A stretch of DNA of 43,618 nt, from positions 1 through 43,618 of the IMG/VR virus record IMGVR_UViG_3300031576_000112, one strand, 5' to 3'. Positions 8,766-42,300 of the stretch are shown here, piece by piece. The stretch comes from a virus. Both the position numbers and the translations under genes were made by a program. Under the pieces are notes generated by a model that saw only the letters and a program-made list of their open reading frames with translations, was not told where the DNA came from and made no database searches. Numbering within the stretch: position 1 is the first letter of the stretch; every line of letters begins with the position of its first letter.

Positions 8766-8926
8766 TGGCGAGGTCGCGGAAGCAAAAGAACGTATTCGCT
8801 TGCAATCGCCGCGGTTTTGGGCAGCTCTGCGGTCACGATCCATCTAAAGATGGTCCGCATACGGTTGATCCTGGTCGCTTTGTAAAAGGCCACGGAAAGC
8901 CTCGCGGCGTAAGGATGGGGGGATAA
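8765..8926 (+). CDS. Small basic Cys/His protein (53 aa)
   Basis: GTG overlapping the previous TAG, with GAGGA upstream. Basic, with CNRRGFGQLCGH and further histidines. Its TAA overlaps the connector start (TAATG). Natural composition and tight coupling support it; function unknown. Confidence 0.55.
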   Translation: MARSRKQKNVFACNRRGFGQLCGHDPSKDGPHTVDPGRFVKGHGKPRGVRMGG

Positions 8927-15325: not shown

Positions 15326-16336
15326 ATGGCAACGCTAGGCGCATCTGTACTGACCCTTGCCGATCACGCCAAAAGGCTTGATCCGGGTGGGAAGATTGAC
15401 ATGATCGTTGAGCTTCTCGGTCAGACGAACGAGATTCTGTCTGACATGATGTTCATGGAAGGGAACCTTCCGACCGGACACCGCATCACCGTCCGAACCG
15501 GGCTTCCCACCGTGGCATGGAGGCTCTTAAACCAGGGTGTTGCTCCGTCCAAGAGCACGACTGCTCAGATCGATGAGCAAGTCGGAATCCTGGAAGCCTG
15601 GTCCGAGGTTGACAAGGACTTGGCCGAGCTGAACGGGAACCAGGGCGCGTTCCGTCTCTCCGAAGCTTCTGGCTTTGTTGAAGCCATGAACGAGGAGATG
15701 GCGGGAACCCTGTTCTACGGAAACAGCGGCACAGCGCCGGAGGAGTTCACCGGATTGTCGGTTCGGTATTCCGACATCGGTTCCGGCTCTCCCGCGAACG
15801 CCCAGAACATCCTTGACGGGGGCGGGACTGGATCGGACAACAGTTCGATCTATCTCGTGGTTTGGGGCGCTCAGACCGTCTTCGGGGTCTTCCCGAAGGG
15901 TTCCAAGGCAGGGCTCGTGCATGAGGACCTGGGACTTCAGACCGTCGAAGTGACGGCCGGAATCGCAGGAAACCGCATGAGAGCCTACCAGGATCGCTGG
16001 CAATGGAAGCTCGGACTTGCGCTGAAGGACTGGCGCTATGTGGTCCGCATCGCCAACATCGACATCTCGAACTTGGTCGCCAAGACTTCCGCGGCTGACC
16101 TGATCGAGTTTATGATTAAGGCGATTCACCGCATCCCGAGCCTTCGGGCTGGCAGACCCGCGTTCTATATGAACCGGAGCTGCTTCCAGATGCTCGACAT
16201 CCAGCGCCGAGATGATGTGATCTCTGGCGGCGGCCTCGTCTACGCCAACGTGGACGGAGTTGCCATTCCGACGTTCCGAGGTATTCCTGTCCGGATTTGC
16301 GATCAGCTAACCGAGACGGAAGCCCAGGTCGCCTAA
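15326..16336 (+). CDS. Major capsid protein
   Basis: 336 residues, ATG after AAAGGAGGAATAAAC, the strongest ribosome binding site in the head block. It begins ASVLTLADHAKRLDPGGKI and contains LPTGHRITVRTGLP, VDKDLAELNG and LRAGRPAFYMNRSCFQMLD, features of the HK97-fold coats of BPP-1-like podoviruses. Position after scaffold and before cement supports the call. Confidence 0.88.
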   Translation: MATLGASVLTLADHAKRLDPGGKIDMIVELLGQTNEILSDMMFMEGNLPTGHRITVRTGLPTVAWRLLNQGVAPSKSTTAQIDEQVGILEAWSEVDKDLAELNGNQGAFRLSEASGFVEAMNEEMAGTLFYGNSGTAPEEFTGLSVRYSDIGSGSPANAQNILDGGGTGSDNSSIYLVVWGAQTVFGVFPKGSKAGLVHEDLGLQTVEVTAGIAGNRMRAYQDRWQWKLGLALKDWRYVVRIANIDISNLVAKTSAADLIEFMIKAIHRIPSLRAGRPAFYMNRSCFQMLDIQRRDDVISGGGLVYANVDGVAIPTFRGIPVRICDQLTETEAQVA

Positions 16337-22391: not shown

Positions 22392-23866
22392 TGCCAACCG
22401 TGCCAAGAATCACAGAGAGAACCGTAGCAGATCGGCCATTGCCGAGCGTTCAGATACAGCCAGCAGCTCCTCTTGAGGCTTTTGGAGGAGGTCAGGCCGC
22501 GGGGCAAGCCGTAGAAACGGCCAGAGGACTTCTGCATACTGTCGGAGAAATAGCCATTAAAGAAAGGCAGCGAGCCGATGATGTCGCTGTTCAGGATGCT
22601 TATAGCCGATTTGTTCCACAGACGAACAGCCTTCTTTATGATGAGAAAGCAGGAGCTCTTTCGAGGCGCGGGAAGGATGCGATGGGAGTCCTGGATAGCC
22701 ATGCTCCGATGTACGATAAGGCTGCCCAGGAGATTGAGGAAGGTCTTGCAAATCAAACTCAGCGCGATATGTTCAAGCAGATCGCGTCAAAGCGTAAAGG
22801 CGAATTTTTAGAGGCGATCCAAAGGCATACTTTCAAAGAGCGCCTGTCTTTGGAGGAAGGGACTTTCAACGGCCTGGTTCAAAATCTACAGGAAGATGCC
22901 GCCGTCAATTCTAATTTGAAAGGCAAGATCGCCGACAACATGAGGCAGATGGAAGGAGCTGCCAAAAACTTTGCAGCCAATCGCGGAATCAGCAAGGAAG
23001 AAACTGACGCGATGCTTGCGAAAATCAGGAGCGGAACCCATGCGAGCGTTCTGCGCCGGATGCTCGTTGAGGGCCAGGTCGATGAGGCAGAGAAGTATGA
23101 AAAAGTTGTTTCAAAAGAAATCCTCGACGACGATTTAAGGGTTTTGGATTTGGTCAAATCAAAAGCAGATCATGCTAGGGCCGAGGCGGCAGATGAGGGA
23201 AGCCGAGAACTCTACATGAGGGCCGTCAATGGGCAACTTCCCTTAGCGGAGGTTGACAACCTATTCGCTTTGGGAAGAATAGATCGATCCTTTTTTAAAG
23301 AACTTCGCTCCAGGGTTTTAAGCCCTAATGATGATCCAGCCATTGCTCCGGATCAAAAGACAGAGAAATTCCTTGCCCTGCTTGATGAATTTAAGAATCT
23401 TCGCGGATCGGAACTGGACAAAAATGGCAAATTGATTAAGCCAGCGACAAAAAATGATCTAAAAACCTTAACGGCTTTTAGAAGTAAAGTCGCTCAGTCT
23501 TCTGGGTTTTTGACAGAAGAGCAGGAGAGGGCTTTCTATAATTATACTCAGAGGAATTTCAATGAAGCCAGAAGCCCAAAGGTCGGGATTTTTGATGGAC
23601 TTTTGGCTGCCTTAAAGTCTATGCCACTGTCTCCCGAGAAGCTTAACGCGGCCGTGACGGGGGCTGTTCTTAGAATCTTCGACAGCGGAACATCGGTGAG
23701 CCAAGCCAGCGCAGCTTCCGCTGAGATTGCTCAGTCGGCGGCGATAGCAACGAACCCAAATCGAAGCCTGTATCAAATCGGGCAAATTCTCAATATGTCG
23801 AATGGATCGGTCAAGGTTGTTGGATTCGATACGGACGGAGAGCCTCTCGTCGAGAGGCTCAAATGA
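22391..23866 (+). CDS. Internal virion protein, gp15-like
   Basis: 491 residues, mostly helical, charged, beginning PTVPRITERTVADRPLPSVQ and continuing with a long coiled region. Location between gp14-like and giant gp16-like genes, and length, suggest the second ejection protein. No enzymatic motif found. Its stop overlaps the next start (ATGA). Confidence 0.68.
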   Translation: MPTVPRITERTVADRPLPSVQIQPAAPLEAFGGGQAAGQAVETARGLLHTVGEIAIKERQRADDVAVQDAYSRFVPQTNSLLYDEKAGALSRRGKDAMGVLDSHAPMYDKAAQEIEEGLANQTQRDMFKQIASKRKGEFLEAIQRHTFKERLSLEEGTFNGLVQNLQEDAAVNSNLKGKIADNMRQMEGAAKNFAANRGISKEETDAMLAKIRSGTHASVLRRMLVEGQVDEAEKYEKVVSKEILDDDLRVLDLVKSKADHARAEAADEGSRELYMRAVNGQLPLAEVDNLFALGRIDRSFFKELRSRVLSPNDDPAIAPDQKTEKFLALLDEFKNLRGSELDKNGKLIKPATKNDLKTLTAFRSKVAQSSGFLTEEQERAFYNYTQRNFNEARSPKVGIFDGLLAALKSMPLSPEKLNAAVTGAVLRIFDSGTSVSQASAASAEIAQSAAIATNPNRSLYQIGQILNMSNGSVKVVGFDTDGEPLVERLK

Positions 23867-26800
23867 GCGAGCGTCTATCAGATGTTCTAGCGTCTCAGGG
23901 AGAGGCTCCGGAGGTTCCCCCGAGCGCAATGCGATTGGGAGATTTTACCAGTCTTCCGAGAGAACAGAGCGTTCCATTCTCAGACGATATTTTAGAGATT
24001 TCGGAAGAGCAAAAATCAGCCTGGAAAGCTCGTGGTCCAATAGGATTCATGGAGGCTTTCAGAAGGGAAAATAAAGCCGAAATTCTACCATTTAACTTGG
24101 GCTCATTGATTTCTAAAGAGCCCGTTGGACTTTTTAAATCCTTTTCTCTTATGCGAGCAGTCAATCGATTACATGATCCGACGACTTCTCAAGATCAACG
24201 CGCTAAAGATGAATCCTTGGTCGGCGATTATCTCGTGCAGCTAGAGGAGGAGCGTATTCGCACTTTCTCTACACGAGGCAAGATCGCTAAAGGCATCGTG
24301 AATTTGCCGCCTTACATGATCGAGTTCTTGGCTACTGGCGGCGCGGCTTCTTTAGGTAAGGCTGCTATCAGAAAAAGTATCTCAGGAGTCGCTCGCAAAA
24401 TTGTTGAAAGTGGGACCTTAAAAGCTACGACGCGAGTGGCCGGCGGCGTTGCCGGAGCGGTCGCCAGGACTGCGGCTATGCCTCATAGACTGGCTCAAGG
24501 CTTCGCAGAGAGACAATTAGCTGCCGGACTTGAACTGACTGATGAAGGAATCAAACTCGCTGATGAGGTCAGTGAACAGCCCCATGTTTCAGCGTTAAAA
24601 GCTTTTGGCGACGTAATGATCGAGAACTTCAGTGAAGTGACTGGTCCGGCCATAGGAAGGACCGCGGGCTATTTGATTCCACAACAGCTTAAACAGGGAC
24701 TTGAGAAGCTTTTTGTAAAACTACATCCTTCCGAATCAGTCAGGAAATTATGGACTAAAGCTGGATATCATGGGTTCTTGGAAGAACTCGGCGAAGAGCG
24801 GGTTGGCGATTTTTTAAGAGCCGTTACGGGAGTAGAGGATTTTGGAGCCAAAGACCCTGACAGCATTTTTGATCGAGTTGTATCCTCAATCCCGAATGCT
24901 GAGGAGTTGCTTGTTGAGGCCGCCGTTTTAAGTATTCCTGGTGCAGCTCGTATGACAACTTCTCAGATCATTAATTTGATACAGACGCGCAAAAAGGAAG
25001 ATGGAGCTATTGAGCCTGAGCTTCAGAATATTCCGGATGAAAGGATTTACGAGATTCTCCAGGGTCCTAAAAAAGAAGAAGTCCGGGCTCCAGCCGAACC
25101 TCTCGATATTCTGGGCCAAGCAGAGGAGAGCCTTGAGGCCGCAGCCGAAGTCCTGCCTATCGAGCTAAAGGACCAAATTGAGGCCGTCGGGGTCAATCCT
25201 TCCTTAGTTGAGGATGCTATTAGGACCTTTAGGGAGGCTGAGGCTACAGGAGAGGGGCCGGGAACCATCCAAGCCGCCCTACAGAATCTAGGAATCGAGC
25301 TTCCTCCGGAGGTATCGGAATCGCTGCAAAAGGTCCTCCTGGAGCCAGCGGAGGCCGTAAAAGCCCAAATTCCAGCCCAGGTAGTCCCCTGGGAGGCTAT
25401 CCCAAGCAAAAGCTTGGGAGCCTTGATAGTCGATGCGCCTTTTGAAGAAAGAACTGCTTTCAGCCAAAAAGCCATTCAGTTGATCCGCGGATCGGCCGGA
25501 CAGGACCTTTTAGCGGAGGAGCTCGGGATCGCTCAGGCCAAGACCGATCCAAGTACAGGAGCTTATGCTGGAGGGATTAATCCCAACGCGGTCACAATCC
25601 TGTCAGCAGACACGCCGATTGAGAAGGTCAGGGCTTACGCGAGAGCAATCCAATATATCTACAAGCAAGATGCGGTCCCGTTTTTTAAGGCTTCAGAGAA
25701 GGGTCCGACCCCTGGAGTGGTCTTCCGTTTTGGAGAATCCCTAACCCCGGAAATGGAGGAGAAGTTCTTCTCCGTGTTACGAGGGGCCTTGACAGAATCG
25801 GCCGGATACACTAAACTAAATGACAAGGAAATTACGGTCCTTGATTTCGAGGGTTTACCTAAATTCCTTGAAAGAATCAGAACTCTGGACGAAGAAAATG
25901 GCGAATCAATCGGAATCGAATCGTGGCGAGACTTCTCAGCCGAATCAGAATACGGCCCAACCCATGATTGGAAATCAGACCCAAAAGGCGAGTCGCTACG
26001 CGGGGCCGCTTCCGAAGGATCACCCTCTTTACAAGCAGGGCTGGATAGTCGGCGCAAAGCGTTTGAAAGACTCCTCTCCGAATCCAGCGCAACCATCAAC
26101 GCAGAAACCGCTCTCCGAAGCGGACTGATCCTCCAGTATACTCCCTATCCTGGCTTAACCCCCGAGCAAAGAGAAGTTGAAACCCGTCTTGCTGATAGTC
26201 TTTCAAGACCCAATGCTATTGAAAAATATGAGTTCATGCCAGCGACTCTCGACGGGAAAATGCTCAATGCTGATCTTGTCAGATTTGTGTCAAAAGAATT
26301 TGCCGCAAACAAAGAAAGCGCAACGCTTCATACTCTCAGCACTCAAAAACCATCTACAGCCTGGATCAAGAAGCATTATCTTGAAAAGCTCGCACAACCG
26401 GGATCAGGACGAGTTCTTTTCTTCGCTGGCGGCGGCGGTAGCGGTAAAACTACTACGGCGACAGGTCCTCTTGCAAGCATCGCAGATGAATCGGACATTA
26501 TTTTCGATGGAGTTATGTCGGATGCTATTAAATCAGCAGAACAAATCGATGCTGCTTTGGCGAGCGGCCGTCCAGTCACAATCGCCTATGTCCATCGTCC
26601 TCTAAAAAATGCTGCCGAGGCAGTCCGGGAAAGGTATTTACTTACCGGGCGCTATGTTCCGTCGGAAGTCCTGACTGAAGATCACGTCAGATCGCAGCAG
26701 ACTATTCTCCAGCTTGCAGATCAATATAAAGACAATCCGGCAGTAGACATTCGCATCTACGACACTTCTTCCGGAACGCCAAAAACATCGAGCCTTGACA

Positions 26801-29766
26801 CGATCAGGAATCTCAGTTATACTAAAGGCGGTGAGTCAGTTGAGGAAACTGTAGCTCGCCTCCTGCCGAAAGTAAGAGAGGTACTCCAAGATGTCGAAGA
26901 AGAAGCAGAAAGAATCATCGCACGAGGAACAGAGGAAAAAGAGTTCGGACTTCGGGAAGCGGCTGGACGAGGTGGTGTTAGCCTCGTTGCAGAAGGCATC
27001 CCAGGAAGGCCCGAAGGCGTTGCCCTAAAATCATCGCCGCTCAAGCGGACTATCCGTGAATTGACGGGGCAGTACCACAAAGAGCTTCCTACCATAAAGG
27101 CGTACCAGGCCCTCAAAGAATCCCTCAGAGTCCAAGCCAAAGCAGCGCGGGAAGCAGCTCGCATGACCCGCGAAGAAATTAAGGCTGCTCAAACGCAGCT
27201 CGTCGAGTTATTGGAAAAATCCGGCCTTGCGCCGGAAGACAAAGCAAAGTTCATTCGCACGATCAAGAACATTCAATCTCAGGAACAGCTTTCCGGCTCG
27301 CTCCCGGAGATCGAGGCTCGGGTTGACGCGCTCATCGAAGCCTCAGCCAAACGCAAAACAATTTCCGCAATCCATGAGGAGCTCCGCGCCGTCACTCCGA
27401 AACGCCAAGCGGGTCGCCTTGTCGGGCGTTTTACTCCAGAGATACAGGCAGCCTTAGACCGGATGCGCCGAGCAGAGCGTCTGACCCAGGCGGCGGCCGC
27501 GGCAAAGCTCGAAGAAAATCTTTCCAAGAACAATTCCGGGAATACTTTCATCCCTGATCCGTTGACGGCTCTCGAAAATAAGATGCTCAACCTTGTCGCC
27601 AGCCGAGAGGCTCTTTCCAGCAAGGAGCTCGGAGAGATGCTTTTTCTGATCCGGACCCTGAAGCTGGCTGGCAAAGAAGCTCGGCTTGTGAAAGAATTGC
27701 GGGATCAAGCAGACCTGACTCAGAAGCAGCAGATCGCTTTATCCATAATCGACAGCCGTCCAAAAGACAAAATCCCGACCACGGCCGATGAGAGTGCAGA
27801 TGATACCAAGTGGGGATGGTACAACCGTGCAACGTCCTGGCTCCTGGGCTGGAATAATATCCTAAATCGTCTCTCCAGAAATGACAAATTCACGACGACG
27901 AATAGAAGCCTTTTGAATCAACACGCCAGCGTTTCAGAGGAAGAAATAGTTGAGAAGCGCGGCATCCGTTTGAATCTGAAAAAGCTCCGCAAGATGTGGG
28001 TCCAGCATTTCGGAGAGATGAACGATTGGGAGCTGACTAAGCGATGGGCCGAAGACTCGAAGCAGCGGTCGCTAGGACAGTTCACAAATGTCCGCGGCGA
28101 GAAGATTGAGCTCGTCATTTCACGCGCAGAAGCCCGTAAGCGGTGGATGGAGTTCCAGGACCCAACCCTCAATGAGACTATTTTCGGAGAACAGGGAATG
28201 GCCTGGAGCCAGGATATGCGTAAGGCCGTAGAGAATTTGCTGTCTCCACAGGACATCGCCTTTGCTCGGGATCAGATGAGTTTTTATCAGAACTATTACA
28301 ATGATTTTAATAAGGTCTTCAGCAGCATCAACGGGGTAAACCTTCCGCAAAACAAAGCCTACAGCCCTATCCGGAGAGTGGTTTTAGAGCGGGAGGTTCT
28401 TGAAAACGAGCTCCTGGGTGAAATGACTCATCGCAGGGCGATCACTCCTTCGGCCGGGAAATTCCGCGTCAAGAACATCCGGGCGCTACAGCAGCTCAAT
28501 GACATCGATATAATCCAGAGGCATATCCAACAGGTCGAGCATTACAAGGCATGGGCCGAGAAGATAAGAGTCCTAAATGGAATCTTTAACGATCCGAAGG
28601 TCAGAGAGGCTATCCAAACCAATTTCGGGAAAGGATTGCTCGCGGCCGTGGATCGCAACATCGAGGACTTTACTCGTGGAGGGATCGACAGGTCCAGCGA
28701 CAGCGCCGTTCTGAACGTCATTAAAAATAACTACACCGTCTCAGTTTTAGCAGCCAAAGGAGCCATCGCCATCAAGCAGTTTATGGCGTTCCCGGCGTTC
28801 GCTGACGCAATTCCTACGAAGGATTTTATAACTGGACTTCTTGACTTCGGCATTGACTCCAGGAAGAAAATGATGATCCTCGCGTCTTCCGAGGTCATGC
28901 GCTCCCGCGGTCTTGCGATTACGCCGGAGATGAAAGAGGCTATCGAGTCAAGCGAGTGGGCTTCCTTCCAGATGAATCCGAATCTGAGGAATATGCTGCT
29001 TACTATGACGCGCTTCGGCGACCGAGCCTCCATCTTTTTAGGAGGCTGGCCTGTTTATCGGTATCATCGAGAGGTCCTCGGCAAGCCTCACTCCGAGGCG
29101 ATCAAGGCGTTTGAGATCGCGCTTTCAGACAGCCAACAATCCGCTGACTTGTCCCAGGCTTCGATGTTCCAGCGCGGGAACTCTTGGCAGCGGCTTTTCT
29201 CTGTTTTCCTCTCAGCTCCAAATCAATACTTCCGGAAGGAATTAATGGCTACTGAGGATATGTTGGCCGGGAGATTGAGCAAACAGCAATGGGCCAAGAC
29301 CATAGCGATTTACCACTTCATTCTTCCGATGATGTTCCAATGGGCCGCGGATGGCCTTGAGTACAGGGTGAAGGATCAGATCAGGGCCGGATTGCTTGGA
29401 TCGTTTAACGGAGTTTTTATTTTGGGCGAGGTCCTAAACGCCATGCTCGGTCAAGTCCTCGGCCTCAAGGTGTGGCAATCCAAGACGATCATCGACAGCA
29501 TCTCCAGAGAGGCAATGGATTTCATCAAGAAGCTGAACCCAGAAGACCTGGATGCGGAATCCTTCTTCGATGCCATTAAGCAGGGGCTCACGCTCTCCGG
29601 CCTCGTGAAAGGATTGCCTATGGATCAGGCAATCAATATCACGGAAGGCATGAAGCAGATGGGCGAGGCCGACACCACAGAAGAATTTTGGAAAGGCTTT
29701 CGCCGAGTGGCCGGGTGGTCTAAATATGTGGTCGATGAAGGTGGAAAAAATAAGGGTCCGTTTTGA
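23863..29766 (+). CDS. Giant ejection protein with zeta-toxin-like kinase domain
   Basis: 1967 residues. In place of T7 gp16. The N-terminal 450 residues are helical with amphipathic membrane-active stretches. Residues about 830-1000 form a P-loop kinase like zeta toxin (UDP-GlcNAc kinase): Walker A G856-GGGSGKT with K862, acidic strand IIFDGVMSD (D882), and VHRPLKN...RYLLTGRYVP. Long helical segments follow, then a C-terminal region (WYNRATSWLLGWNNILNRLS, QNKAYSPIRR, LLTMTRFGDRASIF) resembling ejected polyvalent phage proteins. It would cross the cell envelope with the DNA and could act on host metabolites. I found no obvious lytic transglycosylase motif. Confidence 0.82.
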   Translation: MSERLSDVLASQGEAPEVPPSAMRLGDFTSLPREQSVPFSDDILEISEEQKSAWKARGPIGFMEAFRRENKAEILPFNLGSLISKEPVGLFKSFSLMRAVNRLHDPTTSQDQRAKDESLVGDYLVQLEEERIRTFSTRGKIAKGIVNLPPYMIEFLATGGAASLGKAAIRKSISGVARKIVESGTLKATTRVAGGVAGAVARTAAMPHRLAQGFAERQLAAGLELTDEGIKLADEVSEQPHVSALKAFGDVMIENFSEVTGPAIGRTAGYLIPQQLKQGLEKLFVKLHPSESVRKLWTKAGYHGFLEELGEERVGDFLRAVTGVEDFGAKDPDSIFDRVVSSIPNAEELLVEAAVLSIPGAARMTTSQIINLIQTRKKEDGAIEPELQNIPDERIYEILQGPKKEEVRAPAEPLDILGQAEESLEAAAEVLPIELKDQIEAVGVNPSLVEDAIRTFREAEATGEGPGTIQAALQNLGIELPPEVSESLQKVLLEPAEAVKAQIPAQVVPWEAIPSKSLGALIVDAPFEERTAFSQKAIQLIRGSAGQDLLAEELGIAQAKTDPSTGAYAGGINPNAVTILSADTPIEKVRAYARAIQYIYKQDAVPFFKASEKGPTPGVVFRFGESLTPEMEEKFFSVLRGALTESAGYTKLNDKEITVLDFEGLPKFLERIRTLDEENGESIGIESWRDFSAESEYGPTHDWKSDPKGESLRGAASEGSPSLQAGLDSRRKAFERLLSESSATINAETALRSGLILQYTPYPGLTPEQREVETRLADSLSRPNAIEKYEFMPATLDGKMLNADLVRFVSKEFAANKESATLHTLSTQKPSTAWIKKHYLEKLAQPGSGRVLFFAGGGGSGKTTTATGPLASIADESDIIFDGVMSDAIKSAEQIDAALASGRPVTIAYVHRPLKNAAEAVRERYLLTGRYVPSEVLTEDHVRSQQTILQLADQYKDNPAVDIRIYDTSSGTPKTSSLDTIRNLSYTKGGESVEETVARLLPKVREVLQDVEEEAERIIARGTEEKEFGLREAAGRGGVSLVAEGIPGRPEGVALKSSPLKRTIRELTGQYHKELPTIKAYQALKESLRVQAKAAREAARMTREEIKAAQTQLVELLEKSGLAPEDKAKFIRTIKNIQSQEQLSGSLPEIEARVDALIEASAKRKTISAIHEELRAVTPKRQAGRLVGRFTPEIQAALDRMRRAERLTQAAAAAKLEENLSKNNSGNTFIPDPLTALENKMLNLVASREALSSKELGEMLFLIRTLKLAGKEARLVKELRDQADLTQKQQIALSIIDSRPKDKIPTTADESADDTKWGWYNRATSWLLGWNNILNRLSRNDKFTTTNRSLLNQHASVSEEEIVEKRGIRLNLKKLRKMWVQHFGEMNDWELTKRWAEDSKQRSLGQFTNVRGEKIELVISRAEARKRWMEFQDPTLNETIFGEQGMAWSQDMRKAVENLLSPQDIAFARDQMSFYQNYYNDFNKVFSSINGVNLPQNKAYSPIRRVVLEREVLENELLGEMTHRRAITPSAGKFRVKNIRALQQLNDIDIIQRHIQQVEHYKAWAEKIRVLNGIFNDPKVREAIQTNFGKGLLAAVDRNIEDFTRGGIDRSSDSAVLNVIKNNYTVSVLAAKGAIAIKQFMAFPAFADAIPTKDFITGLLDFGIDSRKKMMILASSEVMRSRGLAITPEMKEAIESSEWASFQMNPNLRNMLLTMTRFGDRASIFLGGWPVYRYHREVLGKPHSEAIKAFEIALSDSQQSADLSQASMFQRGNSWQRLFSVFLSAPNQYFRKELMATEDMLAGRLSKQQWAKTIAIYHFILPMMFQWAADGLEYRVKDQIRAGLLGSFNGVFILGEVLNAMLGQVLGLKVWQSKTIIDSISREAMDFIKKLNPEDLDAESFFDAIKQGLTLSGLVKGLPMDQAINITEGMKQMGEADTTEEFWKGFRRVAGWSKYVVDEGGKNKGPF
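25898..26128 (+). CDS. Possible overprinted gene inside the giant protein
   Basis: In another frame of the giant gene, ATG 25898 opens 76 residues with natural composition: a Gln/Asn/Ser-rich start, then KASRYAGPLPKDHPLYKQGW and IVGAKRLKD. In the host frame this same stretch is a low-complexity linker just before the zeta-like domain. There is only a weak ribosome binding site (GAAGAAA). It may be a genuine overlapping gene or chance. Confidence 0.3.
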   Translation: MANQSESNRGETSQPNQNTAQPMIGNQTQKASRYAGPLPKDHPLYKQGWIVGAKRLKDSSPNPAQPSTQKPLSEAD

Positions 29767-29797: not shown

Positions 29798-30499
29798 ATG
29801 GCGCTTTCATCGGCAACAAGTCGAAATGATTATACGGGGAACGGAGCGGCGAGCGTTTACGCCTACAGCTTTAGGATTACGGATCAGTCTCACCTTGTCG
29901 TCACAGTCAAGGATACTTCAGACGTAGAGACCTCTCTTTCTTTAACCACTGACTACACTGTTTCCGGCGTGAACTCTGCGAGCGGCGGGAACGTCACTTT
30001 AGTGAACTCAAGTCAATCGTGGCTCACTGGAGGAAATTTAAAAAGCAACTACAAGCTGACGATCCGGCGCTCGGTTCCTTTGACTCAACTTACCGACATA
30101 AGAAACCAAGGCTCTTTTTTGCCCGAGACACATGAGGATCAGTTTGACAGGCATACGATGGCAGATCAGCAGCAGCAAGACGAGATCAACCGATCCGTCA
30201 AGCTGCCTGAGACCATTCCGAGCTCAACCTTCGATCCGGAGCTTCCAGCTACAATAACTCAAGTGGCTGATCGAGTTCTTCAGGTGAACTCAACGAAGAA
30301 TGGATGGGCGCTAGGAGCATCTGCCACGGTTGACGTAGCCAGAATGTTTACATCGGATACCTATGCCAGTCTCAAGACAGCGGCGCTTGCTGCTCCAACT
30401 TTGCTCAGATGGGGATGGGCAACTGATATTAAGCAGCTAGTTTTTTATACGGCTGATACCACAGTCGGTGATGCTGGCTGGATTTCGGTGGGGGGATAA
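29798..30499 (+). CDS. T7-type tail fibre, N-terminal attachment protein
   Basis: 233 residues, ATG after GGGAGGTAAAC. The first 150 residues match the T7 gp17 N-terminal domain that docks fibres on the tail: SRNDYTGNGAASVYAYSFRI, TDYTVSGVNSASGGNVTLV, and LPETHEDQFDRHTMADQQQQ. The C-terminal end is short, so this is probably only the adaptor, with receptor binding supplied by another protein, perhaps the next. Confidence 0.85.
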   Translation: MALSSATSRNDYTGNGAASVYAYSFRITDQSHLVVTVKDTSDVETSLSLTTDYTVSGVNSASGGNVTLVNSSQSWLTGGNLKSNYKLTIRRSVPLTQLTDIRNQGSFLPETHEDQFDRHTMADQQQQDEINRSVKLPETIPSSTFDPELPATITQVADRVLQVNSTKNGWALGASATVDVARMFTSDTYASLKTAALAAPTLLRWGWATDIKQLVFYTADTTVGDAGWISVGG

Positions 30500-30500
30500 C

Positions 30501-31733
30501 ATGAATCTTCTTTTCAAAACCTTAGTGCTCTTGCTCCTCGCGGCCCCCGCGCTGGCTGGACCTTATGAGGGCTCGTCCATATCGACGGCCACAGGAAAGG
30601 CCACGCGGAATCTAAGCGGCTCCTTTGGCATCGCCGCCAGCTCAGGGACATCTTCCGCTTATACGATTCACATGGACGGTCAATCCGGTTCAATCCAAGC
30701 CTCAAGCGGAACCTTTGTCTACAGCGTTAAATCCGCGACTGCGGCCTTCGGCCCCGCGGGGACGACTCTCCCATCTGGCGCGGCCGTCATTTCAAGCGGA
30801 ACCGTTGTTATCCAATCGACTTCCTCGGCGGCGACTCATCAGGCATTTAAAATTCAAAACCAGTCTGGCACGGAGTTATTCCGAGTCCAGCAAGATGGCA
30901 AAGTGGCTGTTTCATCTAGCACTCCGACCGATGAGTTTAGCGTCCAAGGCAATATAAATGCAAACGGCTATAAAGCCGGAACCACGGCGGGAACTAGCGT
31001 CACCTGTACCGCGGGCCAATATCTCAATTCCTCTCAGGTCAAAAACGGCATTACAGTCGCCGGGACGTGTGCCACGGCCGGAACTGGTGACGCTATTTTA
31101 AGCGCCACGCAGACATTCACCGGGGACAACACCTTTTCGACCGTCAGAATAAAAGGGTCACAGGGCATCGGGATCGGACCGGGCCTCATGGTCCTGGTTT
31201 CCAGCCAATCATTTTCTGCCGTACATATTGCGACAGTGACGATACCCTCGACAGGGACTTATAAAAGCTACTACATAACAGCCGATGTTCAGAATGTCAA
31301 CGCCGCGGCACGGTCTTTCCTGGTTTATGTCGGGACCGAAACGTCAACGGGCCACGCCTTCGGCATGGCTTCGGCCGCCAGCAACGCGTCAAACAATGCA
31401 AGCGGATGCGTTTTTTCAGCCGGTGCCGTTGCTCTATCATACACGGCGGCCAATGCCACGAATGTGGGCATTAACGCTGACGGACACTTCAGGATGGAAC
31501 TGAACTATATCAGCACGAACATCGTCATGGGAAGCTGGCGTTATTCACATCATACCGGAGCAGTTGGAAGCATCTTTGTTGAGGACCACGGAGGGTTTTA
31601 TTACCGCGGCGGGGCGGTCCCCGCCTTCGGGGATATGCATTTTTTCATGGGAACGACAACGTCCTGCACGGTATCCACGCCAAGCGCGGCATCGTTGACA
31701 GGGACATTCTATGTCTATGCAATGCCCTTTTAA
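30501..31733 (+). CDS. Tail-fibre-like protein with Sec signal peptide
   Basis: 410 residues from ATG 30501 after GGGGGGATAAC. It begins MNLLFKTLVLLLLAAPALA-G, a typical signal peptide. The body is Ser/Thr/Gly-rich and strand-rich (ISSGTVVIQSTSS, FRVQQDGKVAVSS) like trimeric fibres, ending in a globular domain with TASNAS... and HGGFYYRGGAV (C1q/TNF-like in appearance). Signal peptides are abnormal for virion fibres; see findings. Confidence 0.68.
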   Translation: MNLLFKTLVLLLLAAPALAGPYEGSSISTATGKATRNLSGSFGIAASSGTSSAYTIHMDGQSGSIQASSGTFVYSVKSATAAFGPAGTTLPSGAAVISSGTVVIQSTSSAATHQAFKIQNQSGTELFRVQQDGKVAVSSSTPTDEFSVQGNINANGYKAGTTAGTSVTCTAGQYLNSSQVKNGITVAGTCATAGTGDAILSATQTFTGDNTFSTVRIKGSQGIGIGPGLMVLVSSQSFSAVHIATVTIPSTGTYKSYYITADVQNVNAAARSFLVYVGTETSTGHAFGMASAASNASNNASGCVFSAGAVALSYTAANATNVGINADGHFRMELNYISTNIVMGSWRYSHHTGAVGSIFVEDHGGFYYRGGAVPAFGDMHFFMGTTTSCTVSTPSAASLTGTFYVYAMPF

Positions 31734-36391: not shown

Positions 36392-36420
36392 TTGACAAAA
36401 TCAGTATGTTCCGCTATACT
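36392..36420 (+). promoter_or_regulatory. Sigma70 promoter P2
   Basis: TTGACA (36392-36397), 17-base spacer, TATACT (36415-36420), GT. Sequence before the -10 (ATGTTCCGC) matches the pattern of the other two promoters. Followed by AAAGGAGG and ATG at 36449. Confidence 0.88.
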
Positions 36421-36448: not shown

Positions 36449-36709
36449 ATGAAGACAGCCAAGGCGCTCGGGTTCCAGAAGGGAGACTTCGTGTTCAGCG
36501 GAGCTTTCCCTGGAATCCTCATCGGAAACGCTCACACGGCAACGCCGCTTATCGAGGCATGGGGCTTCGAGCATGAGATGGGGTCGGCGTATGCGGAGCA
36601 CTTAAGGAAGCTCACCTTCGCGGAGTTCAAAGCGATGGCCGAGCAGTACGGGTTCGATGGGACTGCGGACTCGAAAATCGCACAGGAGGCAATTAACCAT
36701 GCAAAATAA
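36449..36709 (+). CDS. Early hypothetical protein
   Basis: 86 residues, ATG after AAAGGAGGTAGGAAA, just downstream of promoter P2. Contains FQKGDFVFSGAFPGILIGN and YAEHLRKLTFAEFKAMAEQY. No family recognised. Probably highly expressed early. Confidence 0.7.
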   Translation: MKTAKALGFQKGDFVFSGAFPGILIGNAHTATPLIEAWGFEHEMGSAYAEHLRKLTFAEFKAMAEQYGFDGTADSKIAQEAINHAK

Positions 36710-36785
36710 ACACGAGGAGCTTCTGCCGACAACGGGACCCAACAAGTTCCTGTCGGTGGAGGTGTATTATAACCTGGGGGGATGA
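36699..36785 (+). CDS. N-terminal half of split phage protein (frameshift 5' frame)
   Basis: 28 residues, ATG after CACAGGAGGCAATTAACC: a real start. The sequence ends KFLSVEVYYNLGG at a TGA. In related phage proteins the motif YYxxGGxNyFTG is continuous; here the rest is in the -1 frame. The slippery heptamer G GGG GGA sits exactly at the end, so the full product would be read by -1 frameshifting. Confidence 0.65.
   Translation: MQNKHEELLPTTGPNKFLSVEVYYNLGG
36776..36782 (+). promoter_or_regulatory. Candidate -1 ribosomal frameshift site (GGGGGGA)
   Basis: The heptamer reads G GGG GGA in the zero frame of the gene at 36699, followed directly by TGA. After a -1 slip the next codon is ATG of the second half, so the joined protein reads ...NLGG-MNFF..., the expected family sequence. 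The upstream AGGAGG-type site GGAGGTG (about 36758-36764) could stimulate slipping as in other bacterial frameshifts. Confidence 0.6.
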
Positions 36786-37060
36786 ACTTCTTCACCGGGA
36801 ACGGGGAACCTCGGGCCTACTACCTGAGCGTGACCCCCGTTGAGATAACCCATGAGACTTATGGCGGAAAGGTTGTAAAGAGCAGGTGCACCACAGCCTT
36901 CTCCGGGACTAAACAAGTCGTCCTTCAGGTCAAGAGGCAGTCGCCGAAAGGACTTGCTGAGGCGCTGAAGCTTGCCGAGCCTCTCAAGGCCAACCTGATC
37001 GCTCATGTCCTAGCCAAGAATAAGCTGACGCTGGCCCAGGCCCAGGGGGTGAAAGCATGA
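36782..37060 (+). CDS. C-terminal half of split conserved phage protein
   Basis: 92 residues starting MNFFTGNGEPRAYYLSVTPV, with FSGTKQVVLQVKRQSPKGL and a helical tail. This is a frequent phage early protein type with unknown function; members I recall are single proteins that include the part at 36699. The ATG overlaps the TGA (ATGA), so re-initiation could also make this half alone. Confidence 0.72.
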   Translation: MNFFTGNGEPRAYYLSVTPVEITHETYGGKVVKSRCTTAFSGTKQVVLQVKRQSPKGLAEALKLAEPLKANLIAHVLAKNKLTLAQAQGVKA

Positions 37061-37882: not shown

Positions 37883-37994
37883 GGGCCGCGAGCGAATCGC
37901 GGCACAGCGCCTATTGACCAGGCCAAAGGCAAAAATGGGTCTTGACAAATCGGTGATGTCCTGCTATACTGTAATGGAGGTGGCAAGGAAATGA
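37863..37994 (+). CDS. Small protein (43 aa) overlapping promoter P3
   Basis: ATG with an excellent GAGGAGGTCTTAG site. Basic product (YKTDKGRERIAAQRLLTRPK). The promoter for the RadC-like gene lies inside its 3' half, so the last 18 residues are dictated by promoter sequence. Its TGA overlaps the next ATG. Confidence 0.5.
   Translation: MEYKTDKGRERIAAQRLLTRPKAKMGLDKSVMSCYTVMEVARK
37942..37970 (+). promoter_or_regulatory. Sigma70 promoter P3
   Basis: TTGACA (37942-37947), 17-base spacer ending ATGTCCTGC, TATACT (37965-37970), GT. Third member of the near-identical set. Drives the RadC-like gene and the recombination operon. Confidence 0.88.
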
Positions 37995-40184: not shown

Positions 40185-40543
40185 AAGAAATCTGGAGGCC
40201 AGTGGTCGGGTATAAAGGTTTGTATGAAGTGAGCGATCTTGGCCGAATACGCTCAGTGTCCCGACTTGTGCGCGGTCCTCGTGTATTGCGCGTTGCCTAC
40301 GGGCGAATGATGTCATTACATAGAGAGAAAGGGGATTACTTTAAGGTCAATCTCTGGAAGGATGGGTTCGGACATAAATTTTATGTCCATCGTCTAGTCG
40401 CCGCCACATTCTGCCGTGGAACTGGACATGACGTTAATCACCTTGATTTGAATAAGGGGAATAATTTGGCGACTAATTTAGAATGGTGTAGCCGACAGGA
40501 TAATATGAAGCACTATTTTAGGAGGATTCGTGGCAATAACTGA
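40181..40543 (+). CDS. HNH homing endonuclease with NUMOD4 motif
   Basis: 120 residues. NUMOD4: EIWRPVVGYKGLYEVSDLGR-IRS at the N-terminus. HNH: YVHRLVAATF (H70), DVNHLDLNKGNN (H87), then NLEWCSRQDN (N108). Complete and plausible as a free-standing mobile endonuclease. ATGA overlap with the previous gene; its stop overlaps the exonuclease start. Confidence 0.9.
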   Translation: MKEIWRPVVGYKGLYEVSDLGRIRSVSRLVRGPRVLRVAYGRMMSLHREKGDYFKVNLWKDGFGHKFYVHRLVAATFCRGTGHDVNHLDLNKGNNLATNLEWCSRQDNMKHYFRRIRGNN

Positions 40544-41456
40544 AACGCAACGCGACGATCGCGTAAACTACATTGGGGGTTCTGATATTGCGGGGGTTCT
40601 TGGACTGTCTCGCTGGATGAGCCCCTTAAAAATTTGGGCACAAAAAACAAAACAAATACCCGCTGACGATCTCAGCGATAGCCAAGCCGTCGAGTTAGGA
40701 AACGAGCTGGAAGACGTTGTTTGCCGATTATTCACGAAGCGCACAGGCAAGAAGGTTTATCGCGTAAACGAAACATTGTTCCATCCGAACTACCCGTTCA
40801 TTGGTGCAAATATCGACAGGCGGGTTGTCGGCGAGGACGCAATCTTCGAGGCCAAGACTTGTTCAGCATGGCGGGCCAAGGAGTTTGATGGCGAGGAATT
40901 GCCAGTTGAATATATTCTTCAGGTGCTCCACTACCTCGCTGTTTCTGGAAAGAGCGTTGGCTACCTAGGTGTTCTGATTGGGGGACAAGATTTCCGCTGG
41001 CGATCAATTCAACGCGACGATAAAGTTATTCAGGATATGCTTCGTAAAGCGGTGCATTTCTGGAAAAACTTTGTTGAGACCAAAGAGATGCCATCTCAGA
41101 TCACGAAGAACGACGCTGAAACTCTTTACGGCCTATTCCCTGTTGGCGATGAATCAGCTCCAATCGAGTTGACGGATCAAGCCAATATCATCCTTGAAAA
41201 CCTTGACGCTTATAAGGCCGATCTTAGGGTCCTGGAAGGCAATATCGACCGATCAGAGAATGAGCTGAAGGCCATGCTTGGGGACAACGCTGTGGGGCTG
41301 ACGGAAAAGTATCGTGTGACCTGGAAGAATCAAATCCAGAAGCGCGTCGATACAAAGAGGCTCAAAGAGGAGCTGCCCGATGTCTCGGAAAAATATAGCA
41401 AGACGATAGAGAGCCGTGTCCTGAGAGTGTCTGGAATCAAAAGCAAGGAGAAATAA
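40530..41456 (+). CDS. YqaJ-type phage exonuclease
   Basis: 308 residues. GTG start with AGGAGGATTC. It has the lambda-exonuclease/YqaJ core: N-terminal IGGSDIAGVLGLSRW, D96 in IGANIDRR, E107-A-K109 in IFEAKT, and Q131-x2-H134-Y135 in YILQVLHYLAV. It degrades one strand from double-strand ends so that RecT can load. The C-terminal third is a helical extension. Confidence 0.92.
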   Translation: MAITETQRDDRVNYIGGSDIAGVLGLSRWMSPLKIWAQKTKQIPADDLSDSQAVELGNELEDVVCRLFTKRTGKKVYRVNETLFHPNYPFIGANIDRRVVGEDAIFEAKTCSAWRAKEFDGEELPVEYILQVLHYLAVSGKSVGYLGVLIGGQDFRWRSIQRDDKVIQDMLRKAVHFWKNFVETKEMPSQITKNDAETLYGLFPVGDESAPIELTDQANIILENLDAYKADLRVLEGNIDRSENELKAMLGDNAVGLTEKYRVTWKNQIQKRVDTKRLKEELPDVSEKYSKTIESRVLRVSGIKSKEK

Positions 41457-41457
41457 A

Positions 41458-42300
41458 ATGGCGACGACCGCGGAAGTTGGGAAGCAGTTGGCGAAGACGG
41501 AGCAGCCGAAGGGCTTGAGGGAATTGATTGAGAGCTCGGTAAAGGAGCTGGCTCGGGCGCTGCCTGAGCACATGAGGCCGGAGCGCCTGGTTCGGATCGC
41601 GCTGACTTGCATCCGGACGACCCCGGAGCTGGCGAATTGTACCCAGGAATCTTTCCTCGGGGCCTTATTCACGGCCGCGCAGATCGGGATAGAGCCCGTC
41701 GCTGGACAAGCCTATATCCTGCCATTCAATAATTCACGCAAGAAGGCTGACGGCTCTTGGCATAGCGTCAAAGAGGCTCAGTTTATCCTTGGTTATAAGG
41801 GACTTGCAGCCTTATTCTATCGCCATGAAAAGGCGGTTCAGCTCTCCTGGGGAGTCGTCTACGTTGGCGATGATTTCACCTATGAATATGGGACCGATCC
41901 GAAGCTTCGGCACATCCCGGCCATTAAGGACCGCGGGGCCGTCACCGGATATTATGTCGTGGCCCATCTAGCGAACGGCGGTAAGCCGTTTATGTACATG
42001 AGCCGAGAGGACTGTTTGGATCACGGCCGGAAGCACTCGAAAACCTTTGATAAAAAGAAAGGAGAGTTCTACGAAAAAAGTCCTTGGCGAACCAGCGAAG
42101 AACCTATGTGTCTAAAGACCGTCCTTATCCAGCTCGGGAAACTCCTTCCTCTATCGGTTGAAATCCAGAGTGCGATTGCAGCGGACGAGACGAGCAGAGA
42201 TTACCGGAATGGAATCGACAATGCGCTGGACCTGGTTCCTACTACAACCTGGGACGAGCCTCCAGCGGCCGTGGAGCCCGAGCAAGCGCCAGGGGCTTAA
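41458..42300 (+). CDS. recT: RecT single-strand annealing protein
   Basis: 280 residues with the RecT core: ARALPEHMRPERLVRIALTC, CTQESFLGALFTAAQIGIEP, GQAYILPFNN, QFILGYKGLAALFYR and SPWRT...MCLKTVLIQL. It anneals complementary strands and works with the exonuclease just upstream. The ATG lies one base after the exonuclease stop, with AAGGAGAAATAAA in front. C-terminal tail is acidic and Pro-rich. Confidence 0.94.
   Translation: MATTAEVGKQLAKTEQPKGLRELIESSVKELARALPEHMRPERLVRIALTCIRTTPELANCTQESFLGALFTAAQIGIEPVAGQAYILPFNNSRKKADGSWHSVKEAQFILGYKGLAALFYRHEKAVQLSWGVVYVGDDFTYEYGTDPKLRHIPAIKDRGAVTGYYVVAHLANGGKPFMYMSREDCLDHGRKHSKTFDKKKGEFYEKSPWRTSEEPMCLKTVLIQLGKLLPLSVEIQSAIAADETSRDYRNGIDNALDLVPTTTWDEPPAAVEPEQAPGA

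Follow-up and report, generated by a model that had tools for sequence, protein, structure and literature searches.

Two overlapping reading frames in the genome of an uncultured phage are, as sequence comparison strongly supports, the two halves of one small protein that is made in one piece in its relatives. They lie in the virus record IMGVR_UViG_3300031576_000112, the 43,618 bases of which constitute the window analysed here, and a stretch of six Gs marks the point where one frame gives way to the other. Profile and alignment evidence show that the two frames carry a single protein, which every motif-bearing relative found encodes without a break; as the cause of the frame change we infer an indel. 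The reading that we favour, and that we consider narrowly probable, is that of a single gene broken by a one-nucleotide change in the length of the G run, whether by real mutation or by sequence error.

Results

Arrangement of the two frames

The upstream ORF begins at ATG 36699 and ends with TAT TAT AAC CTG GGG GGA TGA, the stop codon occupying 36783-36785 (Table 1). The G6 run, at 36776-36781, is the longest homopolymer in the gene, and its register, G_GGG_GGA, fits a -1 slip. The initial annotation had stated that the upstream frame stops right after a GGGGGGA heptamer in the correct register and that a -1 slip gives YYNLGG-MNFFTG; both statements agree with the sequence. The -1 frame is open between the G run and the TGA at 37058-37060 and comprises 92 amino acids when counted from ATG 36782. 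This ATG is directly abutted by the G run and shares an ATGA overlap with the upstream stop. Each half had also been credited with its own start signals, which is true of the upstream half, with its AGGAGG at a spacing of 9 nt, but not of the downstream half: no Shine-Dalgarno sequence was found 5-9 nt before ATG 36782, and the closest candidate, GGAGG at 36758-36762, is 19 nt off.

Table 1 Features of the two-frame gene and its surroundings. Positions are those of the window.
Feature	Position	Strand	Basis
Sigma-70-like promoter, TTGACA-17 nt-TATACT, 5' of small-gene cluster	36392..36420	+	11/12 consensus, match only
Shine-Dalgarno AGGAGG of upstream half	36684..36689	+	read directly; 9 nt 5' of ATG 36699
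Upstream half, first 28 residues of phrog_28052-like protein, to TGA	36699..36785	+	read directly; profile match; codon bias
RNA hairpin in upstream coding region, GGAGG in 3' arm	36720..36762	+	MFE -21.8 kcal/mol
SD-like GGAGG, 13 nt 5' of heptamer; stimulator or chance	36758..36762	+	sequence; unshifted L014 has GAGG at same place
G_GGG_GGA heptamer, meeting point of two frames	36776..36782	+	read directly
Downstream half, residues 29-120 of same phrog_28052-like protein, -1 frame	36782..37060	+	profile E 7.1e-22
Possible downstream hairpin, begins 8 nt past heptamer	36791..36844	+	MFE -21.9 kcal/mol; lowest 4.3% of 60-nt stretches

A second near-consensus sigma-70 promoter (TTGACA-17-TATACT, 11/12) was identified at 37942-37970 (+), in the small-gene region. 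Elsewhere in the window, a RecE-like exonuclease adjoins a RecT-like annealing protein at 40530-42300 (+) (phrog_434, phrog_148), and the ORF at 23863-29766 (+), 1967 residues long, includes a P-loop-like stretch, RVLFFAGGGGSGKTTTATGPLA, and may encode a large, polyvalent virion protein of the internal kind.

The two frames encode halves of one protein

The joined protein matched phrog_28052 with an E value of 3.9e-4 over residues 17-88, a region that spans the junction, and neither half alone gave a match to this family at the cut-off used. A profile was then built from 12 relatives with the window sequence omitted. Against this profile the joined protein scored 90.0 bits, the downstream frame taken from the G run 71.9 bits and the upstream half 10.4 bits. 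The upstream half matched profile positions 7-22 and the downstream half positions 21/23-100, such that the two matches are adjacent and non-redundant and meet at LGG|M. Codon bias supported coding in the upstream frame as far as the G run and in the -1 frame from there on, each half in its own frame only. Because a profile made without the window matches both halves in adjacent register, and because each half is coding only in its own frame, these analyses place the join far beyond chance.

The motif YxLGGxN[YFH]FT...R[GA]YY is present, though only across the frame change (Y24, G27, G28, N30, F32, T33, R39, Y41 and Y42). The joined protein could be aligned along its length with single-ORF relatives at 24-43% identity (45% in the best tblastn segment), and at the LGG-M junction no residue was gained or lost. 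By profile and alignment, the joined protein is a genuine phrog_28052-like family member. It shares with its closest relatives, which are phrog_28052 (e.g. YP_009226701.1 of a Staphylococcus SPbeta-like phage) and the IMG/VR loci L011, L012, L014, L016 and L018-L021, the YxLGGxN[YFH]FTGxxxxR[GA]YY motif, a similar length and homology that is continuous over the junction. Unlike these relatives, each of which is a single ORF, the window carries the two parts in different frames, and the continuous reading frame of the family is interrupted here by TGA 36783 in the upstream frame.

Relatives are unbroken at the junction

Relatives in IMG/VR were collected with the motif pattern GG.N[YF]FT...R[GA]YY (8 loci) and then with the profile (15 loci), the contigs being partly shared; tblastn added four Staphylococcus SPbeta-like phage records and an Alteromonas plasmid gene. 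All motif-bearing relatives found, in the IMG/VR contigs, the four phage records and the one plasmid, were single ORFs across the junction. This bears out the statement in the initial annotation that single-protein members of the family have the motif uninterrupted. Fused and split forms were also compared, and the relatives are always joined, which is the opposite of the outcome that the annotation had named as telling against it, namely halves that are always separate genes. No split or shift-using relative occurred among the motif-bearing relatives found, all of which are distant (at most 45% identity).

The junction is spelled in diverse ways in the relatives, as CTG GGC GGC ATG, TTA GGC GGT ATG, ATT GGA GGT ATG, CTA GGC GGC ATG, TTA GGT GGA ATG, CTT GGT GGG CAG, CTA GGA GGC TAT or TTA GGT GGT CAT. 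Two loci, L019 and L021, have TTG GGG GGA TAT at this place and thus carry the heptamer of the window, in frame and with no shift. The heptamer is not conserved among the distinct relatives otherwise, these two being the ones that have it.

Several further searches returned no additional copies. Patterns for close copies with any number of Gs found none in the collections searched, and none was found in 48 contigs with a related portal protein (approximately 50-64% identity), many of which are fragmentary. Scanning viral and genome collections with a single protein as query yielded no relatives, although motif patterns and the profile did find some, and the motif pattern gave no match in the genome contig collection. 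The pattern GGGGGATGAA... gave seven matches, none from the phrog_28052-like family. Pfam and NCBIfam held no meaningful match to the protein. A Butyrivibrio match (L119) was set aside as a junction test, its motif region being too divergent, and sequence matches to vinculin (E ~0.02) were regarded as chance.

Predicted fold and position of the break

The AlphaFold model of the relative L011 (mean pLDDT 84, pTM 0.73) is a single domain with strands at residues 2-11, 16-25, 40-52, 58-62 and 68-74 and a helix at 80-102. When mapped onto this model, the break between residues 28 and 29 falls in the loop linking strands 2 and 3, so that the upstream piece would amount to two sheet strands, both of which would be missing from the downstream piece. 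With the split inside a loop of a single domain, neither piece looks self-sufficient in the model. In a fold search the sole strong match was an uncharacterised viral protein, A0A8S5SIF3 (E 6.2e-7). Matches to PDB folds were weak, with Z scores of about 5 or less; PC4-like and PUR-alpha chains were two kinds out of many, so binding of nucleic acids is no more than a lead.

The heptamer as a spelling of Leu-Gly-Gly

Since L019 and L021 encode the same residues with TTG GGG GGA and show no shift, the codon comparison identifies the G_GGG_GGA heptamer as an incidental outcome of Leu-Gly-Gly conservation. From the codon use of the phage, NTG GGG GGG is expected at approximately 2% of Leu-Gly-Gly sites and NTG GGG GGA at 2.5%. 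The other ORFs of the window contain 30 in-frame X_XXY_YYZ heptamers, and those ORFs read through or end normally.

Among these heptamers is a second in-frame G_GGG_GGA, located at 30490-30501 (+), in GTG GGG GGA TAA, with the stop at about 30497; there the -1 frame shuts at once. This site lies 5 nt before the next ATG, and its G run may act as a Shine-Dalgarno sequence. A similar site, GGGGGGATAATG, is found 5' of the portal gene at 8926.

A probable length change in the G run

Under the favoured reading, a small phage protein of about 120 residues, with a predicted beta-sheet and C-terminal helix, would have had its gene interrupted in mid-frame. The G run would differ by 1 nt in length from the uninterrupted form, which would put the gene in two frames, and the change would be either a real, recent indel in the phage or a mistake in the sequence as assembled. 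Translation of this copy would terminate at residue 28, and a full-length product would require ribosomes to slip now and then on the G run, by way of accidental rescue and not through a programmed signal. The break coincides exactly with the gene's longest homopolymer, a kind of tract in which indels and errors cluster, and the normal codon bias of both halves fits a recent change. The length change is the more economical reading, since it needs nothing else and agrees with the relatives being unbroken and with the codon bias being intact. Against it, ORFs of 491 to 1967 amino acids are intact in the window, one of them containing a G7 run, which argues that the sequence is not generally indel-prone; the combination of SD-like sequence and hairpin at the site, uncommon in this phage, also counts against a length change.

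Sequence context and alternative readings

That combination is the main argument for programmed -1 frameshifting, which we regard as a tentative alternative, less probable than a length change. Ribosomes would pause at CTG GGG GGA through contact of GGAGG with the anti-Shine-Dalgarno sequence and through the downstream hairpin; some would slip back one base to make the 120-residue protein and the rest would release a 28-residue peptide. The heptamer stands in the right register just before the 0-frame stop and is followed by a long open -1 frame. SD-like sequences (GGTGG/GGAG/GAGG/AGGTG) sit 12-17 nt before the second base of the heptamer motif, within the 6-17 nt upstream range used in the survey of Sharma et al. 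(PMC4066793), and the downstream hairpin begins at a short distance. Intact genes of the phage contain 29 in-frame heptamers, not one of which has both an SD-like sequence and a hairpin; an SD-like sequence by itself occurs at 21% of in-frame positions. Both flanks are also more structured than synonymous recoding predicts, with z -5.3 for the in-frame stretch 36720-36764 (only 1 of 192 stretches tested was more extreme) and z -2.8 for the downstream flank, but the boundaries of these stretches were picked after inspection. The 36720-36762 hairpin, which falls in the first third of the gene, has a single copy in the window, and Rfam gave no matches. A hairpin in the major head protein gene, at 15821-15865 (+), has z -6.8 against synonymous recoding, beyond the value for 36720-36764.

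Several observations weigh against a programmed site. No relative is split, and the two that have the heptamer are unshifted; moreover, a similar hairpin occurs downstream in the unshifted L011, as GAGG does in the unshifted L014. Heptamers of the GGN type shift poorly in E. coli (PMC4066793), the strong upstream hairpin would sequester GGAGG, and no use is apparent for the 28-residue 0-frame product. The initial annotation had called the heptamer a textbook frameshift site fusing two halves of a phage protein. The profile upholds the single protein; the working slip site finds no such backing in the unsplit relatives and the unshifted L019 and L021, and a 1-nt change in the length of a G run would by itself produce this very arrangement.

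A more specific form of recoding, which we consider unlikely though worth stating, is that this phage lineage put an otherwise always-unbroken small gene under -1 frameshift control, so that the full-length protein would be made at a low and possibly regulated level. The signal would then consist of the G_GGG_GGA run, the SD-like sequence once freed from the upstream hairpin, and the downstream hairpin.

Separate translation of two polypeptides, coupled through the ATGA stop-start overlap and re-associating into the domain, is improbable: such overlaps are common among the genes of the phage (23863, 37057, 39333, 40181) and the break lies in an inter-strand loop of the L011 model, but ATG 36782 has no Shine-Dalgarno sequence at the right spacing, split relatives were not found and a mere pair of beta strands would make up the upstream piece. 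The re-initiated form suggested by the initial annotation has no correctly spaced Shine-Dalgarno sequence, and its product would lack two beta strands of the domain.

Discussion

The site resembles the -1 frameshifting of bacteria and phages, of the dnaX, IS911 and lambda G-GT type, in that an X_XXY_YYZ heptamer stands in register, preceded at 6-17 nt by an SD-like sequence and followed after 8 nt by a possible hairpin. It differs from those systems in that its heptamer belongs to a weak class, neither heptamer nor split is conserved, and the 0-frame product would be just 28 residues long. The length change that we favour has a parallel in the compensated indels in the run of seven Gs of the herpesvirus thymidine kinase gene (reviewed in PMC5009743), in which a 1-nt change in a G run could likewise be bridged in part by low-level slippage. 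For the thymidine kinase, selection and rescue were demonstrated experimentally (PMC5009743), whereas any rescue of the present gene would be hypothetical.

At first glance the site would pass for a phage frameshift gene. An in-register heptamer is weak evidence, however, where a conserved Leu-Gly-Gly motif and a homopolymer coincide. If frameshifting were nevertheless true, it would mean that recoding was recently acquired by a gene that gets by without it in related genomes, and would offer a good case for watching the origin of such a signal.
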